Positions 11,990 through 42,343 of a stretch of 64,000 nucleotides of DNA are shown here, in pieces. A program made the translations under genes and the position numbers. This DNA comes from Tessaracoccus palaemonis. Lineage in GTDB: Bacteria > Actinomycetota > Actinomycetes > Propionibacteriales > Propionibacteriaceae. Each line of letters opens with the position of its first letter. The first letter of the stretch is position 1. The notes under the pieces are model-generated. The model ran no database searches and had not been told where the DNA came from. It saw only the letters and a list, made by a program, of their open reading frames with translations. The DNA is taken from the NCBI RefSeq assembly GCF_019316905.1, contig NZ_CP079216.1:1240001-1304000 (forward strand), in the 5' to 3' direction.

Positions 11990-14026
11990 ATGGATCCGCA
12001 TCAGTGGCTCGAGGACGTGGTCGGCGACGACGCGCTCGACTGGGTGAGGGAGCGTAACGCGCTGACCGTGGGCGAGTACGGCTCGAGCGACGACTTCGTC
12101 TCCCTCCGCGACGACCTGCTCGCGATCTACGACGCCGACGACCGGATCCCCGTCGTCAGGGCGCGCGGCGACCTGCTCTACAACTTCTGGCGCGACGGGG
12201 AACACCCACGCGGGCTGTGGCGCCGCACGACGCTCGACGAGTACCGAGGCCCCTCCCCGAAGTGGGAGACGGTCCTCGACCTCGACGCCCTGTGCGAGGC
12301 CGAGAACGAGAACTGGGTCTGGCACGGAGCCGACGTGCTGCGGCCCGGTAACCGGCGCGCGCTGATCTCGCTGTCGAGGGGCGGCGCCGACGCCGACGTC
12401 ACCCGCGAGTTCGACCTGGAGACGCTCGGATTCGTCGAGGACGGGTTCCTCCGCCCGGAGTCGAAGGGCGGGCTCTCCTGGATCGACGACGACACGGTGT
12501 TCCTCGTGTCCGCCGACGGGCCGGAGACGGTGAACCTCGCGGGCTACGGGCGACTCGTCCGCCAGTGGCGCCGCGGGACGCCCATCGATTCGGCGGAGGT
12601 GGTCTTCGCGGGCCCCGCCGACAACAACGGCTACGGCATCTACCCGGGCCGCGACCATGCCGAGGGGTTCGAGCGCGACCTGCTCGTCCACTACCTCGAC
12701 AGCCGCGACACCGCGCTGTACGTGCGGGCCATCGGCGAGGACGGGTTCACGAAGGTCGAGGCGCCCGACAGCGCCTCCAAGGACGTCCACCGGCAGTGGC
12801 TCACGATCGAGTTGCGCGAGCCGTGGACCGTCGAGGGCGTCACGTACCCGGCGGGAGCGCTGCTGGTCGCGCGGTTCGACGAGTGGCTCGCCGGGGACCG
12901 GCGCAGCCTCGAGATGGTCTTCGAGCCGACGGACACCACGTCGCTGGTCGGGGTGACCTACACCCGCGGCCACCTGGTCCTCAACGTGCTCGACGACGTG
13001 AAGAACGCGCTCGTGGTCCTCACACACGGCGGTGACGGATGGTCGAGGCGCCCGCTGGGCGGTGTGCCGGAGTTCGGCACCATCGCGGTCAGCGCCGTCG
13101 ACGGGGATGAGAGCGACGGGCTGTGGCTCAGCGTCAACGACTACCTGACGCCGCCCTCCCTCCTGCTCGGCAGCGCCGACGCGGTGGCTCCTGCGCCGGA
13201 GGTCCTGAAGTCGCAGCCGGCCATGTTCGACGCGTCGCGGCACCTGGCCGAGCAGCGTTTCGTGGTCTCTCCCGACGGCACCCGCGTTCCGTACTTCGTG
13301 GTGCGTCCGAAGGATGCCCCCTTCGACGGCTCCACACCCACGCTGCTCTACGGCTACGGGGGCTTCGAGATCCCGCTGCTGCCGGGCTATTCCGGCGGTA
13401 TCGGCAAGGGGTGGCTGGAGAAGGGCGGCGCCTACGTGGTCGCCAACATCCGGGGCGGCAGCGAGTACGGGCCGCGATGGCACCAGGCGGCTCTACGGGA
13501 GAACCGGCACCGCGCCTACGAGGACTTCGCCGCGGTCGCGCGGGACCTGGTGGCCACCGGCCTCACGTCGCCGGAGCACCTCGGCATGATGGGCGGCAGC
13601 AACGGCGGCCTGCTGGCCGGCAACATGCTCACGCAGTACCCGGAGCTGTTCGGCGCCATCGTCATCCGGGTCCCGCTGCTCGACATGCAGAGGTATCACA
13701 CGCTGCTCGCCGGGGCGTCCTGGATGGCGGAGTATGGCGACCCGGACGACCCCGCCGACTGGGAGTTCATCCAGGGCTTCTCGCCGTACCACCTGTTCGA
13801 CGCGGACCGCGAGTACCCGCCGACCCTCATCATGACCTCGACGCGCGACGACCGCGTCCATCCCGGGCATGCGCGCAAGTTCATGGCGAAGATGCTCGAG
13901 GCGGGCAAGGACGTGCGGTACTTCGAGAACATCGAGGGCGGGCACGGCGGGGCGGCCGACAACAGCCAGGCCGCCCGGATGGATGCCCTGTATCTCACGT
14001 TCCTCTGGCGTCAGCTGGCGGGCTGA
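11990..14026 (+). CDS. Prolyl oligopeptidase family serine peptidase (S9)
   Basis: 678 aa. The N-terminal ~400 residues form the beta-propeller; the C-terminal alpha/beta hydrolase carries the nucleophile in GGSNGGLLAGN near residue 533, the aspartate in STRDDRVHPGH near residue 616 and the histidine in EGGHGGAADN near residue 649. The order and length match S9A prolyl oligopeptidase / oligopeptidase B-type enzymes, cytosolic peptidases of short peptides; no signal peptide is seen. A -10-like TACGGT (11956-11961) and RBS GGGGAGGCGAG precede the ATG. The last 32 nt overlap the convergent HNH gene. Confidence 0.88.
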   Translation: MDPHQWLEDVVGDDALDWVRERNALTVGEYGSSDDFVSLRDDLLAIYDADDRIPVVRARGDLLYNFWRDGEHPRGLWRRTTLDEYRGPSPKWETVLDLDALCEAENENWVWHGADVLRPGNRRALISLSRGGADADVTREFDLETLGFVEDGFLRPESKGGLSWIDDDTVFLVSADGPETVNLAGYGRLVRQWRRGTPIDSAEVVFAGPADNNGYGIYPGRDHAEGFERDLLVHYLDSRDTALYVRAIGEDGFTKVEAPDSASKDVHRQWLTIELREPWTVEGVTYPAGALLVARFDEWLAGDRRSLEMVFEPTDTTSLVGVTYTRGHLVLNVLDDVKNALVVLTHGGDGWSRRPLGGVPEFGTIAVSAVDGDESDGLWLSVNDYLTPPSLLLGSADAVAPAPEVLKSQPAMFDASRHLAEQRFVVSPDGTRVPYFVVRPKDAPFDGSTPTLLYGYGGFEIPLLPGYSGGIGKGWLEKGGAYVVANIRGGSEYGPRWHQAALRENRHRAYEDFAAVARDLVATGLTSPEHLGMMGGSNGGLLAGNMLTQYPELFGAIVIRVPLLDMQRYHTLLAGASWMAEYGDPDDPADWEFIQGFSPYHLFDADREYPPTLIMTSTRDDRVHPGHARKFMAKMLEAGKDVRYFENIEGGHGGAADNSQAARMDALYLTFLWRQLAG

Positions 14027-15499
14027 GGTCGTCGGGCGGCCCGTCGCGGCTGGTGCCCTCTCGCGTGACGCGGTAGCGGTAGCCGAGGGGGCTGGTCCAC
14101 AGGATCTCCCATGACCCGCCCTTGGCCGGCTCCCAGTGCTGCGTCACCTGCCAGAGGTCTGCGCTCTTGGCCCGGTGGAGGGTCCTGCCGAACGGGGCGA
14201 GGTTGCCCAGTCGCGTCTGCCCGCGCCGACCGTCGATGTAGGCGACGTTGTGGTCCACGTCGAGCCCGGCGCTGGAGCGGTTGGAGAAGGGGAACGGCTC
14301 GACGGGGAACGTCAGCTGCACGGCCCGCCGCATGCGGGGCGTGGGGTCGTGCCGGTCCTCCGGGGCCATCGCCACGGCGTCGATCACCGGCTGCACCGTG
14401 ATCCGCGTGCCGGAGCCGTTGATGCCCTCGCCGAGGAACTGAGCCAGCAGGCGCGTGGTGATGTGCCCGGCCGCCTCGACGCGCGCGGCCGGGTCCAGCG
14501 TGCCGAGCGAGTCGCCGCTGATGTGCACCGCGATCCCCAGCCGCGGCGCAGCGAGCCTGAGGTCGGCCTCGGGTTCCCTGAGCTCGCATCCCGGTTCCCT
14601 GAGCTCGCATCCCGGTTCCCTGAGCTCGCATCCCGGTTCCCTGAGCTCGTCGAAGGGCATTGAGCTTGTCGAAACGTCCATGCCCGCGACGCCGGATATC
14701 AGCTCGCCGGCCGTCTCCCCACCGAGCGCGGAGGTCACCTCCACCAACGGTGCCTGACCGCTGGCGCGCTGCAGCAGCGCCAGCGCCATGGCCGGATGAG
14801 CCAGGATGCCGAGCGCCTTCGCGCGGAGTTCCGCGACGTCAGCTCGGGGTTGGTCGGGAGCAGGATCTCCGCCAGCCGGTTGACCGTGGCCATGAGGTAC
14901 TTCGCGTCGAGGACGCCCATGACGGCCGACAGGTTGACGGCGCCCTCGAAGAAGCCCCACACGTACACGCCTCGGGTGGTGCGACGCTCCCGCTCGCGCT
15001 CGTACGCGGCTACGGGGTCGGCCTCGATGATGAGCCTGTCCAGCAGCTTCATAGCGCCCGAGTAGGAGAGCCTCAGCTGCCGCGGGAGCCACCGCTCGGT
15101 CACCTGCTCGGCCACCGTCGCGTCCAGAGCCGCGCAGCGGTGGGCGGCCGCTACCGCCCTGTGCACCTCGATCTCGTCGGCCTCGACAGCGGCCAGCACC
15201 GACGGGTGGCGGTACTTGAGGCGGACCGCGTCGATGACCTTCGACGCGGCCGCGTGGGCGGAGATGCCCAGCAGCCCGGCGACCTCCAGCGCGAGGTACT
15301 GCGACGCGCCGATCTCCTCGACGGTGCCCTGCACGATGCGCTGCCGGTCGGCGAGCGCCTCGATCATCTCCACGTCGTCGAAGCGGTACTCCTCGGCGAG
15401 TTCGATAAGCATCAGCAGGACCCCGGCCTCGTCCCGGCGGCGCGCACGATCGAAGCTGACAAGCCTGTCGGCCGCCCTCTTCACGCGCTCAACGTCCAT
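13995..15499 (-). pseudogene. DUF222/HNH endonuclease (13E12-repeat family) with a one-base frameshift
   Basis: Two adjoining minus-strand frames make one DUF222-HNH protein. The first (ATG at 15499) covers the DUF222 helical domain and runs normally to LLPTNPEL at about 14840; the second continues with DVAELRAKALGILAHPAMAL through the HNH domain (DHNVAY, then GNLAPFGRTLHRAKSADLW) to the stop at 13995. One missing G (CTGACGTC where CTGGACGTC would keep frame) joins them; restored length is about 501 aa. Between the domains is an ELREPGC repeat encoded by tandem 21-bp DNA units. A PafBC-type promoter (15506-15528) and TAGCAT 6 nt from the ATG indicate a leaderless, DNA-damage-induced transcript. 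Either a recent pseudogene, a phase-variable gene or a sequencing error. Confidence 0.75.
14572..14673 (-). repeat. Tandem 21-bp repeat joined to a dispersed-type palindromic element
   Basis: Three perfect 21-bp units lie at 14572-14592, 14593-14613 and 14614-14634, then a partial fourth to 14649. They run into TGAGCTCGTCGAA (14642-14654) and TGAGCTTGTCGAA (14661-14673). On the minus strand this reads like the TTCGACAAGCTCA...GAGCTCAGGGAACCGGG repeat that I recall as dispersed in many high-GC genomes. It is in frame with the HNH gene and encodes SMPFDELREPGC followed by ELREPGC copies between the two domains. The unit length is a multiple of three, so copy-number change would keep the frame. 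Confidence 0.85.
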
Positions 15500-15505
15500 G
15501 AACCC

Positions 15506-15528
15506 ATGCTAGGTACACCCACCGACAA
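15506..15528 (-). promoter_or_regulatory. PafBC (RecA_NDp)-type DNA-damage promoter of the HNH gene
   Basis: On the minus strand: TTGTCGGTG (complement of 15520-15528), exactly 8 nt, then TAGCAT (complement of 15506-15511), and 6 nt later the ATG at 15499. This is a full match to the LexA-independent mycobacterial damage motif tTGTCRGTG-N8-TAnnnT recognised by PafBC. Confidence 0.75.
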
Positions 15529-26500: not shown

Positions 26501-26516
26501 TCGAACGGATGTTCGC
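26501..26516 (+). promoter_or_regulatory. LexA (SOS) box of recA
   Basis: TCGAAC-GGAT-GTTCGC, one mismatch from the actinobacterial LexA palindrome TCGAAC-N4-GTTCGA. A -10-like TACGGT (26517-26522) begins immediately after it, so LexA would cover the spacer of the upstream recA promoter. Confidence 0.9.
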
Positions 26517-26563: not shown

Positions 26564-26585
26564 TGTCGGTGGGGCTTCCTACAGT
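26564..26585 (+). promoter_or_regulatory. LexA-independent (PafBC/RecA_NDp) promoter of recA
   Basis: CTGTCGGTG (ending at 26571), exactly 8 nt, then TACAGT (26580-26585) matches tTGTCRGTG-N8-TAnnnT, with a C in place of the first T. In M. tuberculosis recA also has a LexA-controlled promoter and a separate promoter of this type. The start of this transcript would fall near 26592, leaving a ~47-nt leader with GAGGAGAGGAAA before the ATG. Confidence 0.8.
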
Positions 26586-26638: not shown

Positions 26639-27671
<1,033 letters not shown>

Positions 27672-27682
<11 letters not shown>

Positions 27683-37474: not shown

Positions 37475-38239
37475 TCAGAGTCGGCGCATGACGGCGACGA
37501 CCTTGCCCATGATGCTGGCGTGCGTGCCGTCGATGGGGGAGTAGTCGGGGTTGTGCGGCAGCAGCCACACGTGCCCGTCTTTGCGCTGGAACGTCTTGAC
37601 GGTGGCCTCGTCGTCGAGGAGCGCGGCGACGATGTCTCCGTTGACGGCGTCGCTCTGCTGCCGGACCACGACCCAGTCCCCGTCGCAGATGGCGGCGTCG
37701 ATCATCGAGTCGCCCCGGACCTCGAGCATGAAGACCGTGCCCTCTCCGACCAGCTGCTTCGGCAGCGCGAAGACGTCCTCGATCTCCTGCTCGGCGAGGA
37801 TCGGCCCGCCGGCGGCGATGCGGCCGACCAGCGGTGTGGGGACCGACGGGGCCGTCGAGTCGTAGGACTGCTCCGGCGTCAGGGCTGCTCCCAGCCCCGG
37901 GGCGGGCGTCTCGACGCCGGTCTCGTCGTCGGGCAGCTTCACGACCATCGCGCGGGGGCGGTTGGGGTCGCGACGCAGGAAGCCCTTGTCCTCGAGGACC
38001 TTCAGCTGGTGGCTGACGGACGAGGTGGACGCCATGCCTGCGCGCTTGGCGATCTCGCGGATGCTCGGCGGGTAGCCGACGGCCTCGATGGATTCGCGGA
38101 TGACGCGCAGGATCGCGACCTGGCGCATCGTCAGCCCGTGTCGGTTCTCCGGGCCGTCGGGAAGCTCGGAGATGTCTCCGAGCTGGGTCCTCAGCTGGGC
38201 GTTACTCGGGCGTCCTCGGCGGGGGTTCGTGTCAGCCAT
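37475..38239 (-). CDS. lexA: SOS repressor LexA
   Basis: 254 aa. N-terminal winged HTH ([49 protein letters not shown]), a variable linker and an S24 self-cleavage domain. The scissile Ala143-Gly144 bond is in RIAAGGPIL, the nucleophile is Ser178 (RGDSM) and the general base Lys215 (ATVKTF). TAACAT on the minus strand ends 6 nt before the ATG, so the message is leaderless; its -35 falls inside the LexA box at 38260-38275. Confidence 0.97.
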
Positions 38240-38259
38240 GTACAGATGTTAGCCCCGCT

Positions 38260-38275
38260 CGGAACAGGTGTTCGA
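38260..38275 (-). promoter_or_regulatory. LexA box of lexA (autoregulation)
   Basis: CGGAAC-AGGT-GTTCGA, a close match to TCGAAC-N4-GTTCGA, overlapping the predicted -35 of the leaderless lexA promoter (-10 complement of 38246-38251). Confidence 0.88.
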
Positions 38276-38305
38276 TAAGACGCGCCGTGTCGTCGGATCA
38301 GAAAC

Positions 38306-38327
38306 TGTCGGTGGCCCCTGTTTGAGT
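38306..38327 (+). promoter_or_regulatory. PafBC-like motif upstream of the small SOS gene
   Basis: CTGTCGGTG ending at 38313, then 8 nt and TTGAGT (38322-38327). The upstream half matches the PafBC motif as well as the recA copy does, but the -10 has T instead of A at its second base, so activity is uncertain. Confidence 0.35.
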
Positions 38328-38365
38328 GATCCGTGTCGCAGCAGCGACACGCCGGAGAAGAAACT

Positions 38366-38426
38366 TCGAACAGCTGTTCCAATGTGGCCTCCGGCGGGTT
38401 ATAGTTTGATTCGAACAGACGTTCTA
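38366..38426 (+). promoter_or_regulatory. SOS promoter with two LexA boxes
   Basis: Box 1 TCGAAC-AGCT-GTTCCA (38366-38381) overlaps the -35 TTCCAA (38377-38382). After 17 nt comes the -10 TATAGT (38400-38405), then Box 2 TCGAAC-AGAC-GTTCTA (38411-38426), which covers the expected start site. Two repressor sites bracketing one promoter imply tight control, for a product that is probably harmful when SOS is off. Confidence 0.88.
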
Positions 38427-38449
38427 GGCTTCACGAAGGGAGAGGTCCC

Positions 38450-38791
38450 ATGACCGCTTCGACCACCACCTCGTTCACGGTTGTCGGCACCGGCGACCGT
38501 CGCCGCGTCGTCACCCCGGCCGGCCGGCCCGACCTCCGCCTGCCCCGCGCCCACGCGCCGCGCCCCGTCGCCCCTGGTCGCGTCGGCTCCGTGTCCTCCT
38601 GTGTTGCGCCCCGTGTCGAGGCGCCCGCCCCGTCGACCCTGTGGCTCAAGATCAAGGTGGCCGCCGTCGGCGCGCTGGCCATCGCCGGCGTGGCCGCCTC
38701 GGCGTCCTCGTTCATCGCCATGGCCCAGCCTGATCCGGCCACCGGGTATGTGGCCGGAGACCCCGCCTGGGCGCACGTCACGCAGCCCTGA
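38450..38791 (+). CDS. Small SOS-regulated single-pass membrane protein (DivS/ChiZ position)
   Basis: 113 aa, not recognised by sequence. The Pro/Arg/Val-rich N-terminal ~60 residues are basic and probably cytoplasmic. One hydrophobic helix follows (residues ~64-92, WLKIKVAAVGALAIAGVAASASSFIAMA), then a ~20-residue tail ending HVTQP. The gene lies between lexA (divergent) and nrdR, exactly where M. tuberculosis has Rv2719c (ChiZ) and corynebacteria have divS, SOS-induced cell-division inhibitors. Unlike Rv2719c there is no LysM domain. Two LexA boxes control it, and GGGAGAGG precedes the ATG. A division-inhibitor role is inferred from locus, regulation and topology. Confidence 0.75.
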   Translation: MTASTTTSFTVVGTGDRRRVVTPAGRPDLRLPRAHAPRPVAPGRVGSVSSCVAPRVEAPAPSTLWLKIKVAAVGALAIAGVAASASSFIAMAQPDPATGYVAGDPAWAHVTQP

Positions 38792-38818
38792 CGTGGCCGT
38801 GACGACCCGCTCGGCGGG

Positions 38819-38893
38819 TTGTCCACCGGCCCCTCCTGGCGTAGGATCACAACATCTAGTGGCCATGACGCGCTTTGACCCCATAACTTGTGT
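38819..38893 (+). promoter_or_regulatory. nrdR promoter with tandem NrdR boxes
   Basis: TTGTCC (38819-38824), a 17-nt spacer and TAGGAT (38842-38847) form a good housekeeping promoter. Two 16-bp sites resemble the NrdR box ACACWATATMTWGTGT at 13 of 16 positions each: TCACAACATCTAGTGG at 38847-38862 and ACCCCATAACTTGTGT at 38878-38893. Their starts are 31 bp apart, the three-helical-turn spacing usual for NrdR box pairs. NrdR-dATP would block its own operon here. Confidence 0.8.
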
Positions 38894-38941
38894 TATTTCG
38901 TCGAGTGTGCCTGCCCGTGACCTACGACGACTGGACCGCAC

Positions 38942-39451
38942 ATGCACTGCCCGTTCTGCCGGCACGCCGACACCAAGGTGTCGGACTCCCGTGCGACGGA
39001 GGATGGCTCCGCCATCCGCCGCCGGCGGGTATGCCCGGCGTGCGGGCGGAAGTTCACCACGGTCGAGCAGATCGTGCTCACGGTCGTGAAGCGGTCGGGC
39101 GTCGTCGAGCCGTTCAGCAGGGACAAGGTCATCCGCGGGGTGTCCAAGGCGTGCAAGGGCAGGCCGGTCTCGGCGGCGCAGCTCGCCTCGCTCGCGCAGC
39201 GGGTGGAGGAGTCGCTGAGGGCCTCCGGGCAGGCCGAGATCCCAGCCGAGAGTATCGGCGTGGCCATCCTCGGTCCGCTCGAGGAACTCGACGCCGTCGC
39301 CTACCTCCGGTTCGCCAGCGTCTACCGCAACTACGAGTCGGTCGACGACTTCCAGCGCGAGATCGACGCCATCCGACTCGGCCAGGACGGGGCCCAGCCG
39401 CGGCTCGAGGCCACGCCTCCCGGGCTCGCGCAGGAACCGCTCATCAGCTGA
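38942..39451 (+). CDS. nrdR: Transcriptional repressor NrdR
   Basis: 169 aa. N-terminal zinc ribbon ([17 protein letters not shown], then VCPACGRKF) and an ATP-cone domain ([30 protein letters not shown]). It senses ATP/dATP and represses ribonucleotide reductase genes. It lies 54 nt upstream of nrdJ, its obvious target, and behind a pair of NrdR boxes, so the unit is autoregulated. Confidence 0.96.
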
Positions 39452-39505: not shown

Positions 39506-42343
39506 ATGACCGCGACCGCAGCGCGCTCCAACCGCCGCAAGTCCGACACCGGGTCCAAGGGACTCGCGATCTCCCGCGTCTTCACCACAAAGGGGGTGCA
39601 CCCCTACGACGAGGTGGAGTGGGAGCGCCGCGATGTGGTGCAGACGAACTGGAAGACCGGTGAGACGGTCTTCGAGCAGAAGGGCGTGGAGTTCCCGTCC
39701 TTCTGGAGCGTCAACGCCTCCACGATCGTCACGACAAAGTACTTCCGCGGCGCGCTCGGCACGGCGCAGCGGGAGGACTCGCTGAAGACGCTGATCGACC
39801 GGGTCGTCAAGACCTACACCAAGGCCGGCGTCGAGTACGGCTACTTCGGCACCGACGCCGATGCCGAGATCTTCGAGCACGAGCTCACGTGGATGCTGCT
39901 CAACCAGTACTTCTCGTTCAACTCCCCGGTCTGGTTCAACGTCGGCACCCCGGCCCCGCAGCAGGTCAGCGCCTGCTTCATCCTGTCGGTCGACGACTCG
40001 ATGGAGTCCATCCTCAACTGGTACAAGGAGGAGGGCTTCATCTTCAAGGGGGGCTCGGGCGCCGGCCTGAACCTGTCGCGGATCCGCTCGTCCAAGGAGC
40101 TGCTGAGCTCGGGCGGCAACGCCTCCGGGCCCGTCTCCTTCATGCGTGGCGCCGACGCCTCGGCCGGCACCATCAAGTCCGGCGGCGCTACGCGCCGCGC
40201 CGCGAAGATGGTCGTCCTGGACGTCGACCACCCCGACATCGAGGAGTTCGTCGAGACCAAGGCGCGCGAGGAGGACAAGATCCGCGCGCTGCGCGACGCC
40301 GGCTTCGACATGGATCTCGGCGGCAGGGACATCACGAGCGTCCAGTACCAGAACGCCAACAACTCGGTGCGCGTCAGCGACGAGTTCATGAACGCGGTCG
40401 TCGACGGCACGCCGTTCGGCCTGCGCGCCCGCATGGACGGCTCGGTCATCGAGGAGGTCGACGCCCGCAACCTCTTCCACAAGATCGCGAAGGCCGCCTG
40501 GGAGTGCGCCGACCCCGGCCTGCAGTACGACGACACCATCAACGCGTGGCACACCAACCCCGCCACCGGCCGCATCACCGCGTCGAACCCCTGCTCCGAG
40601 TACATGAGCCTCGACAACTCGTCGTGCAACCTCGCCTCGCTGAACCTGCTGAAGTTCCTGGGCGACGACGGCGCGTTCGACGCCGAGCTGTTCGTCAAGG
40701 CCGTCGAGCTCATCATCACGGCCATGGACATCTCGATCTGTTTCGCGGACTTCCCGACCGAGTCGATCGGCGAGACCACACGCAACTTCCGCCAGCTCGG
40801 CATCGGGTACGCCAACCTCGGCGCGCTGCTGATGGCGATGGGCAAGGGCTACGACTCCGAGGGTGGCCATTCGACGGCCGCGGCCATCACCTCGATCATG
40901 ACGGGCGCCTCCTACCGCCGCAGCGCCGAGCTCGCCGAGGTCGTCGGCCCCTACAACGGGTACCCGGCCAACGCGGAGGGCCACCAGCGGGTGATGCGCA
41001 AGCATCAGGCCGCCAACGACGACCTGCGCGTGCTGACCGACGACCGCGCGCTGCACGCCGTCGCCACCCGTGAGTGGGACAAGGTGGTCAGCCTCGGAGC
41101 GAAGAACGGCTTCCGCAACGCGCAGGCCTCCGTCCTCGCCCCCACCGGCACCATCGGCTTCATGATGGACTGCGACACCACCGGCGTCGAGCCGGACTTC
41201 TCGCTGGTCAAGTTCAAGAAGCTCGTCGGTGGCGGCTCGATGCAGATCGTCAACCAGACCATCCCCCGCGCCCTCAAGCGCCTCGGGTACAAGTCCGAGG
41301 ACGTCGACGCCATCGTCGAGTTCATCTCGGAGCACGGCCACGTCGTCGGTGCTCCCGGGCTGGCCGCGGAGCACTACGAGGTCTTCGACACCGCCATGGG
41401 CCAGCGTGCCATCCGCCCCATGGGCCACGTGCGCATGATGGCCGCCGTGCAGCCGTTCCTCTCCGGCGCCATCTCGAAGACGGTCAACCTGCCCGAGAGC
41501 GCCACCATCGAGGACATCGAGAACGTCTACCTCGAGGGCTGGAAGCTCGGCCTCAAGGCGCTGGCCGTCTACCGCGACAACTGCAAGGTCGGCCAGCCGC
41601 TGTCCGACGGCAAGAAGAAGCCCGCGGGCAAGGGCGAGGCCGAGGTCGTGGAGAAGGTCGTCGAGAAGATCGTCTACCGCCCCAAGCGTGAGCGCCTCCC
41701 GAAGTCCCGCGCCGGCCGCACCACCAGCTTCTCCGTCAGCGGGGCCGAGGGCTACATGACCTCGGGTGCCTACGCCGACGGCCGCCTCGGCGAGGTGTTC
41801 CTCAAGCTCGGCAAGCAGGGCTCGACCCTGGCCGGCGTGATGGACGCCTTCTCGATCGCGGTGTCGATCGGCCTGCAGTACGGCGTCCCGCTCGAGTCCT
41901 TCGTGCAGAAGTTCACGAACCTGAAGTTCGAGCCCGCCGGCATGACGGACGACCCCGACATCCGGATCGCGCAGTCCTTCATGGACTACATCTTCCGCCG
42001 CCTGGCGCTCGACTACCTGAGCTTCGACGACCGCGCCGAGCTCGGCATCTACACGGCCGGCGAGCGCGCCCGCTACGTCGAGACCGGGTCCTATCTCTCG
42101 GAGGAGGACGAGGCCGAGATGCCCGAGGCGGAGCAGCTCCGCAACGACGCCGGCGACGACTTCAACGTCGACGGCGCCCGCCAGCCCTCCCTGCTCGACG
42201 CCCACACGACGGCCGAGCTGATGGAGGCCATGGGTGTCGCCGAGGTCGACGCCCCGCTGTGCATGACCTGCGGCACCAAGATGCGCCCGTCCGGCTCCTG
42301 CTACGTCTGCGAGGGCTGCGGCTCCACCTCCGGCTGCAGCTGA
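39506..42343 (+). CDS. nrdJ: Adenosylcobalamin-dependent (class II) ribonucleoside-diphosphate reductase
   Basis: 945 aa. Makes deoxyribonucleotides using an adenosylcobalamin-derived radical, without oxygen dependence. Visible are the N-terminal FPSFWSVNASTIVTTKYFRG, WFNVGTPAPQQVSACFILSVDDSMESI, NPCSEYMSLDNSSCNLASLNL with the active-site cysteine, and the barrel segment LAPTGTIGFMMDCDTTGVEPDF. A C-terminal Cys-rich tail (CMTCGTKMRPSGSCYVCEGCGSTSGC) re-reduces the active site. It ties growth to the cobalamin cluster at 51-64 kb. A strong terminator follows. Confidence 0.97.
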   Translation: MTATAARSNRRKSDTGSKGLAISRVFTTKGVHPYDEVEWERRDVVQTNWKTGETVFEQKGVEFPSFWSVNASTIVTTKYFRGALGTAQREDSLKTLIDRVVKTYTKAGVEYGYFGTDADAEIFEHELTWMLLNQYFSFNSPVWFNVGTPAPQQVSACFILSVDDSMESILNWYKEEGFIFKGGSGAGLNLSRIRSSKELLSSGGNASGPVSFMRGADASAGTIKSGGATRRAAKMVVLDVDHPDIEEFVETKAREEDKIRALRDAGFDMDLGGRDITSVQYQNANNSVRVSDEFMNAVVDGTPFGLRARMDGSVIEEVDARNLFHKIAKAAWECADPGLQYDDTINAWHTNPATGRITASNPCSEYMSLDNSSCNLASLNLLKFLGDDGAFDAELFVKAVELIITAMDISICFADFPTESIGETTRNFRQLGIGYANLGALLMAMGKGYDSEGGHSTAAAITSIMTGASYRRSAELAEVVGPYNGYPANAEGHQRVMRKHQAANDDLRVLTDDRALHAVATREWDKVVSLGAKNGFRNAQASVLAPTGTIGFMMDCDTTGVEPDFSLVKFKKLVGGGSMQIVNQTIPRALKRLGYKSEDVDAIVEFISEHGHVVGAPGLAAEHYEVFDTAMGQRAIRPMGHVRMMAAVQPFLSGAISKTVNLPESATIEDIENVYLEGWKLGLKALAVYRDNCKVGQPLSDGKKKPAGKGEAEVVEKVVEKIVYRPKRERLPKSRAGRTTSFSVSGAEGYMTSGAYADGRLGEVFLKLGKQGSTLAGVMDAFSIAVSIGLQYGVPLESFVQKFTNLKFEPAGMTDDPDIRIAQSFMDYIFRRLALDYLSFDDRAELGIYTAGERARYVETGSYLSEEDEAEMPEAEQLRNDAGDDFNVDGARQPSLLDAHTTAELMEAMGVAEVDAPLCMTCGTKMRPSGSCYVCEGCGSTSGCS

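Follow-up and report, generated by a model that had tools for sequence, protein, structure and literature searches.

A LysM-less membrane protein in the lexA-nrdR slot of Tessaracoccus palaemonis: a probable SOS division inhibitor with LexA boxes and a PafBC-type promoter

ChiZ (Rv2719c) of Mycobacterium is one of the described proteins closest to the small membrane protein considered here. Both are encoded in a slot beside lexA, both have several SOS boxes, and both possess one transmembrane helix. The basic N-terminus of the present protein is also a feature of ChiZ. The two differ outside the membrane, where ChiZ carries a LysM domain and the present protein instead a tail, about 21 residues long, that contains GDPAWAHV. 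In M. tuberculosis, lexA has one SOS box of its own, and three more together with a PafBC motif control the divergent operon, which is printed as Rv2019c in the text and as rv2719c in the supplement title of the report; as described there, the PafBC motif is aimed at rv2719c and not at lexA, so that dual control by LexA and PafBC is already known for this gene (PMC8151990). The LysM domain of ChiZ has been reported to be dispensable (PMC3989709). DivS of Corynebacterium glutamicum is by description similar to the present protein in being SOS-induced, encoded near lexA, and devoid of LysM (PMC6851548, PMC3989709).

Comparable proteins are described from more distant bacteria. YneA of Bacillus subtilis is likewise an SOS-induced bitopic inhibitor, but its LysM domain is reported as essential for toxicity, and its transmembrane helix docks on TM7 of FtsW (PMC13396833). 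Models that place ChiZ, SosA, and SidA on this FtsW helix, with SidA at the opposite face, are not regarded by their authors as of high confidence (PMC13396833). SosA of Staphylococcus is SOS-induced, has a single transmembrane segment and an outer tail with conserved residues, works without LysM, requires the outer tail, and owes its turnover to CtpA (PMC6851548). It belongs to another phylum and has 77 residues, and its likeness to the present protein is one of architecture alone. DidA, a division inhibitor of Caulobacter, is similar only in its wiring, as it is controlled independently of SOS by the WYL activator DriD (PMC6789036, PMC11804915), comparable to a PafBC input; PafBC itself is reported to be activated by single-stranded DNA (PMC11804915). 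In Streptomyces, the known inhibitors are said to have no clear homologues (PMC9380542). The need for LysM therefore differs, since YneA requires it for the septal block and ChiZ reportedly does not, and a family whose slot proteins have no LysM but which has kept the promoter offers a natural series for finding which part of the protein acts.

The window analysed here is a stretch of 64,000 nucleotides of the T. palaemonis genome. The small gene (38450-38791, forward strand) starts with an ATG, directly preceded by GGGAGAGG. It lies between the divergent lexA gene, which encodes the SOS repressor (37475-38239, reverse strand; Pfam LexA_DNA_bind and Peptidase_S24, NCBIfam TIGR00498), and nrdR (38942-39451, forward strand; Pfam and NCBIfam). 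The open reading frame 3′ of nrdR (39506-42343) was named by eye and is presumably ribonucleotide-reductase-like. An earlier note had placed a single-pass protein of 113 amino acids in the lexA-nrdR interval, and the reading frame, both neighbours, and one predicted helix agree with it.

No terminator was found between the small gene and nrdR by a strict scan of 38200-39000, so that read-through from the damage promoters into nrdR is possible. This absence, along with the shared direction of the two genes, would suit a membrane protein that is induced by damage but serves another purpose, such as the tuning of wall hydrolases or action together with nrdR and the ribonucleotide reductase genes. 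Such a purpose is unlikely, as nrdR has NrdR-box-like sites of its own, and both proteins studied in this slot, ChiZ and DivS, are reported to suppress division (PMC3989709). The NrdR-box-like sites are two in number, 31 bp apart and 5′ of nrdR (38847-38862 and 38878-38893), with 2 and 3 mismatches against the consensus and 0.41 matches expected in the window; they point to autoregulation of nrdR. Some genera (loci L125, L146, L106, L142, and L181) encode a further membrane protein, which has a CP.CG.T-like motif, between the slot gene and nrdR.

Three LexA-type palindromes are found inside 165 bp, starting at 38261, 38367, and 38412. The first, GGAACAGGTGTTCG (38261-38274), is matched by the pattern in lexA's own promoter, and boxes near the lexA start are present in relatives too. 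The other two, identified by pattern match and conservation, bracket the putative promoter of the small gene: box 1 (CGAACAGCTGTTCC, 38367-38380) lies over a weak -35 region (TTCCAA, 38377-38382), and box 2 (CGAACAGACGTTCT, 38412-38425) over the expected transcription start. Between them stands a good -10 element, TATAGT (38400-38405, forward strand), supported by its sequence and its conservation. A strict sigma-70 scan of 38200-39000 returned no promoter, and the promoter call thus rests on conservation. A single LexA palindrome means little, because GAACN4GTTC has 27 sites in the 3.2 Mb genome versus 24 for the reversed control pattern; a genome-wide census of the palindrome as a regulon list was dropped on these same counts. 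Equally tight triplets are expected about 2.6e-5 times genome-wide (Poisson estimate from the GAACN4GTTC density), and the closeness of the three palindromes is not a product of chance.

The small-protein profile served to fetch 30 same-genus loci, which correspond to 30 of the 39 genomes of the host genus. A box pair 42-55 bp apart is present in 22 of these loci and absent from 8. The spacing is 45-47 bp in 20 of the 22, and every one of these 20 has TANNNT 12-15 bp 5′ of the second-box core. In the locus with the 55-bp pair (L236), the second site falls at a start codon; it is doubtful and probably due to chance. The earlier claim that two LexA boxes flank one promoter, over its -35 and over its start, is therefore borne out, with a good -10, a weak -35, and a pair conserved in 20 of 30 loci. 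For the box and motif counts in the host family, 89 of its 90 sampled loci were used. Within 330 bp past the lexA start and with one mismatch allowed, at least two LexA boxes occur in 66 of the 89, one in 22, and none in 1, while shuffled regions average 0.09; one box per locus is normally lexA's own.

A PafBC-type promoter, TGTCGGTG-N8-TTGAGT, is directed to the small gene at 38306-38327 on the forward strand, where the full site reads TGTCGGTGGCCCCTGTTTGAGT; the assignment is based on pattern search and family conservation. The pattern TGTCRGTG-N8-TNNNNT has three perfect matches in the window (38306-38327, 26564-26585 in front of recA, and 15506-15527 on the reverse strand) versus 0.13 expected from shuffling. 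The promoter of recA (26639-27682) combines a perfect LexA box (26502-26515) with its perfect PafBC-type motif (TGTCGGTG-N8-TACAGT) and so provides an internal control for the dual arrangement at the small gene. PafBC promoters have a consensus with TANNNT at its end; the recA site matches it, and TTGAGT of the slot site departs from it by one mismatch. The -10 part was loosened to TNNNNT, and it is in this loosened form that the slot site agrees with the PafBC pattern.

Of the 89 host-family loci, 44 carry the core TGTCRGWG directed at the slot gene and 3 carry it on the other strand; the reversed pattern gives 2 and 0 on the two strands, and the core is present in 2.7% of shuffles. Both this core and the loosened -10 were fixed after the first listing of sites, with the recA site and the strand control as safeguards. 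It is this conservation, together with the recA control, that strengthens the earlier hint of a PafBC-like motif at 38306-38327. Within the genus, the core is present in 20 of 30 loci. Two adjacent genes with WYL matches (genome positions 1,223,473-1,224,584) fit pafB-pafC and were named by their arrangement. The small gene is very probably damage-induced via two separate routes, LexA and PafBC. The core was also tried as a genome-wide regulon search, which was dropped, as 11 sites (at most one mismatch) stood against 7 for the control and only the slot locus was perfect.

In the AlphaFold model of the protein, a single confident helix spans residues 63-92 and confidence is low elsewhere (mean pLDDT 66.6). 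Eleven R/K and three D/E residues are found on the N-terminal side of the helix, versus no R/K and two D/E on the C-terminal side. From this prediction and the distribution of charge, a single transmembrane helix is predicted, with the N-terminus inside and the C-terminus outside. The protein thus resembles the LysM inhibitors ChiZ and YneA in its linkage to lexA, its LexA boxes, and its predicted N-in/C-out helix, but it has no outer LysM. Pfam gave no match to it at E ≤ 1, and NCBIfam gave one match at E 0.15, far under its cut-off, in agreement with the earlier statement that LysM is absent and no family recognisable. A different, known domain, which would have spoken against the earlier interpretation, was looked for in Pfam, NCBIfam, and solved structures, and none was found; the small-protein profile matches no solved structure, and among 34 aligned sequences Pfam detected neither LysM nor a common family, and gave weak stray matches to five families, each in a single member.

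The protein database contains 31 homologues at E ≤ 0.001. Eight residues do not vary across the 34 aligned sequences: Cys51, V101, G103, P105, A106, W107, H109, and V110. The cytoplasmic Cys (Cys51 in the window protein) lies mostly 10-20 residues N-terminal to the helix. A Cys within 45 residues before the helix occurs in 34 of 34 members; among the other-genus slots 9 of 25 have one, and among the LysM slots 6 of 52, and these latter counts rule out Cys51 as a slot-wide feature.

The comparison of the slot across genomes places the protein in a wider context. A LysM model matches 61 of 80 lexA loci, mostly of Actinomycetota; it was built from 52 slots (alignment A2) chosen by eye among these 80, and its 52 matches out of 52 are therefore a matter of selection. 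Judged by sequence, ChiZ-like LysM proteins are the usual products of the lexA-nrdR slot. The 19 loci without a match comprise 13 assigned to the host family by record title, two contig ends, and loci of Streptomyces, Kitasatospora, Mycolicibacterium, and Rhodococcus; the step from genus to family is presumed for some of the 13, and one locus (L018) was counted in the family by its identity with genome G090. In the host family, the LysM model matches none of 90 loci from 26 genera, two of which are of insufficient length for the slot gene, whereas a transmembrane-type segment is present in 83 of the 90. These loci were taken from 111 host-family genomes with a lexA match, as the 30 best and 60 others; fragments, contig ends, and weak matches are among the loci left out. 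The homologue search at lexA-nrdR loci proposed in the earlier note thus had a twofold outcome: the small-protein profile matches 37 of 39 genomes of the genus (and once in the host genome), and the gene is not an isolated oddity, since LysM is missing family-wide.

Profile comparisons give a tentative, stepwise link between the slot genes. Slots from other genera of the host family (alignment A4, 25 slots picked for easy coordinates and hence not a fair sample) match the LysM slots over an LTRRG-TM core with an E value of 7.8e-7. The host-genus alignment (A1) matches A4 over the pre-helix region and the helix (E 2.3e-4, probability 45%). Directly against the LysM slots, only five columns of A1 are aligned (E 0.065); the comparison of the window protein with ChiZ was made through this alignment, A2, which includes mycobacterial slots, and there is no direct profile match. 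The simplest history would be that the host family's ancestor lost LysM and that the present tail was shaped later in the host genus.

The conserved outer tail AGDPAWAHVT occupies codons 102-111 (38753-38782, forward strand). Its residues are kept in relatives, and its synonymous codons vary among the same-genus loci wherever the residues permit. The motif G-x-x-x-W-x-H-V, usually as GDPAWAHV, was recovered in all 30 fetched same-genus loci, 24 at the first scan and 6 as variants, which include GDPGWAHV (3) and GAPEWAHV (1); 9 of the 39 genus genomes are without a fetched locus in this census. In one locus (L231, genome G122), the tail motif stands in a different frame from the remaining gene. 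The family sample includes eight genomes of the same genus: GDPAWAHV is present in five and GEAAWSHV in G054, and in G095 and G105 the motif is missing or decayed, with VGWRSV or nothing in its place. The 25 aligned slots from other genera do not contain it. The homologue of G122 (G122:C1:868296-868627) is split across two frames with two profile matches, which reflects a frameshift or an assembly error.

The split copy of G122 and a very short variant of 62 amino acids in the host family (L066) are what would be expected of a decaying relic, non-functional since the loss of LysM, of which mainly the promoter persists. Such a relic is hardly credible in view of tail residues conserved despite varying synonymous codons, a profile that matches nearly all genomes of the genus, and a gene retained where lexA was not found.

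Two further explanations concern what the tail does. The letters of the tail resemble the start of a LysM, and Asp46 and Thr47 of the YneA LysM are reported to be needed for toxicity (PMC13396833), so that the tail could be what remains of the LysM motif that comes first (V-x-x-G-D-T-L-W-x-I-A) and have been retained for a residual contact with glycan. This origin is quite improbable, given that the profile comparison aligned only the five columns mentioned above and that the other-genus slots read in the host family have neither LysM nor the tail motif. The motif might otherwise be a turnover signal, with a membrane protease clipping the protein after repair and the helix alone acting as the inhibitor. 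The last 10 residues of SosA are reported to control its turnover, and CtpA clips it (PMC6851548); the motif is close to the C-terminus and missing from the aligned other-genus slots, and the host genome has a 359-residue Lon_C-type reading frame with an N-terminal hydrophobic stretch. The sole S41 (CtpA-type) match, however, lies in an open frame of 1181 residues and is not an obvious CtpA, and a turnover signal is possible but somewhat doubtful.

Two genera inform on the control of the gene in the absence of a typical lexA. In both, the nrdR locus is otherwise normal. In genus g4 (G003, G027, G047, G063, and G077), a search with the LexA of the window as sole query gave no lexA match in four of five genomes; in the fifth it gave just a weak S24 match, which lies on a different contig from nrdR. 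Genus g4 may therefore have a diverged lexA. A bitopic reading frame is kept 5′ of nrdR in all five. In the 360 bp examined, gene start included, a LexA box with at most one mismatch occurs in none of the five, and the PafBC-type motif is present with no mismatch in three and one mismatch in two. In genus g14 (G013, G035, G069, G083, G094, and G104), a LexA-like gene of strongly diverged sequence stands next to nrdR, and a bitopic reading frame is kept. The six genomes together have one box-like site, which carries one mismatch. The PafBC-type motif has one mismatch in four and two mismatches in two; the latter two sites carry no weight because such sites occur on the opposite strand in four of six. 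The LysM model matches none of the 11 g4/g14 loci. Lineages of this type would allow a test of whether PafBC alone can run a division checkpoint.

Taken with the known systems, the small gene is probably the host form of the actinobacterial SOS division inhibitor of the ChiZ/Rv2719c slot, which would have lost LysM and would act in a SosA-like mode; its inhibition of division is inferred. LexA on the two boxes around the promoter would keep the gene shut until DNA damage lifts it from them, and single-stranded DNA would render PafBC active and open the second promoter just upstream. The protein would then insert in the membrane so that the basic N-terminus stays inside and the tail of about 21 residues faces outwards. 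FtsW/FtsI, the septal wall synthase, is the probable docking partner of the helix, and it would be the GDPAWAHV tail, instead of a LysM domain, that blocks septal peptidoglycan synthesis until repair ends. We infer this docking partner, the role of the tail, and the division block from the features above. A relative without LysM might not inhibit at all, because YneA is described as non-toxic without its LysM (PMC13396833). If it does, the tail is a candidate for a very short peptide that targets the divisome.

The earlier note had read the gene as a divergent or undescribed SOS division inhibitor. Its regulation, synteny, and architecture fit an inhibitor of this kind, but dual control and LysM-less inhibitors are already known. 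Neither the conserved tail nor the retention of the gene where lexA was not found figures in that note. As far as literature searches reach, the new elements are a slot without LysM throughout the family, the motif in the tail, and lineages in which no lexA was found but the gene persists with a PafBC-type motif; no paper pairing Tessaracoccus with 'cell division inhibitor' was found. A more far-reaching history may be proposed tentatively, with less confidence than the function itself: the wall-binding LysM was shed family-wide, one genus gained an exposed G-x-x-x-W-x-H-V peptide that itself disables the septal synthase, and the brake of a lexA-less sister lineage is run wholly by PafBC.

The third perfect PafBC-type motif of the window ends six bases before the ATG of a reading frame on the reverse strand (14735-15499), which presumably resembles a DUF222/HNH-type gene. 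The second half of this gene apparently continues in another frame (13995-15092, reverse strand) after a run of GCELREP repeats, and the change of frame after this run may mark a frameshift or a slippage site.
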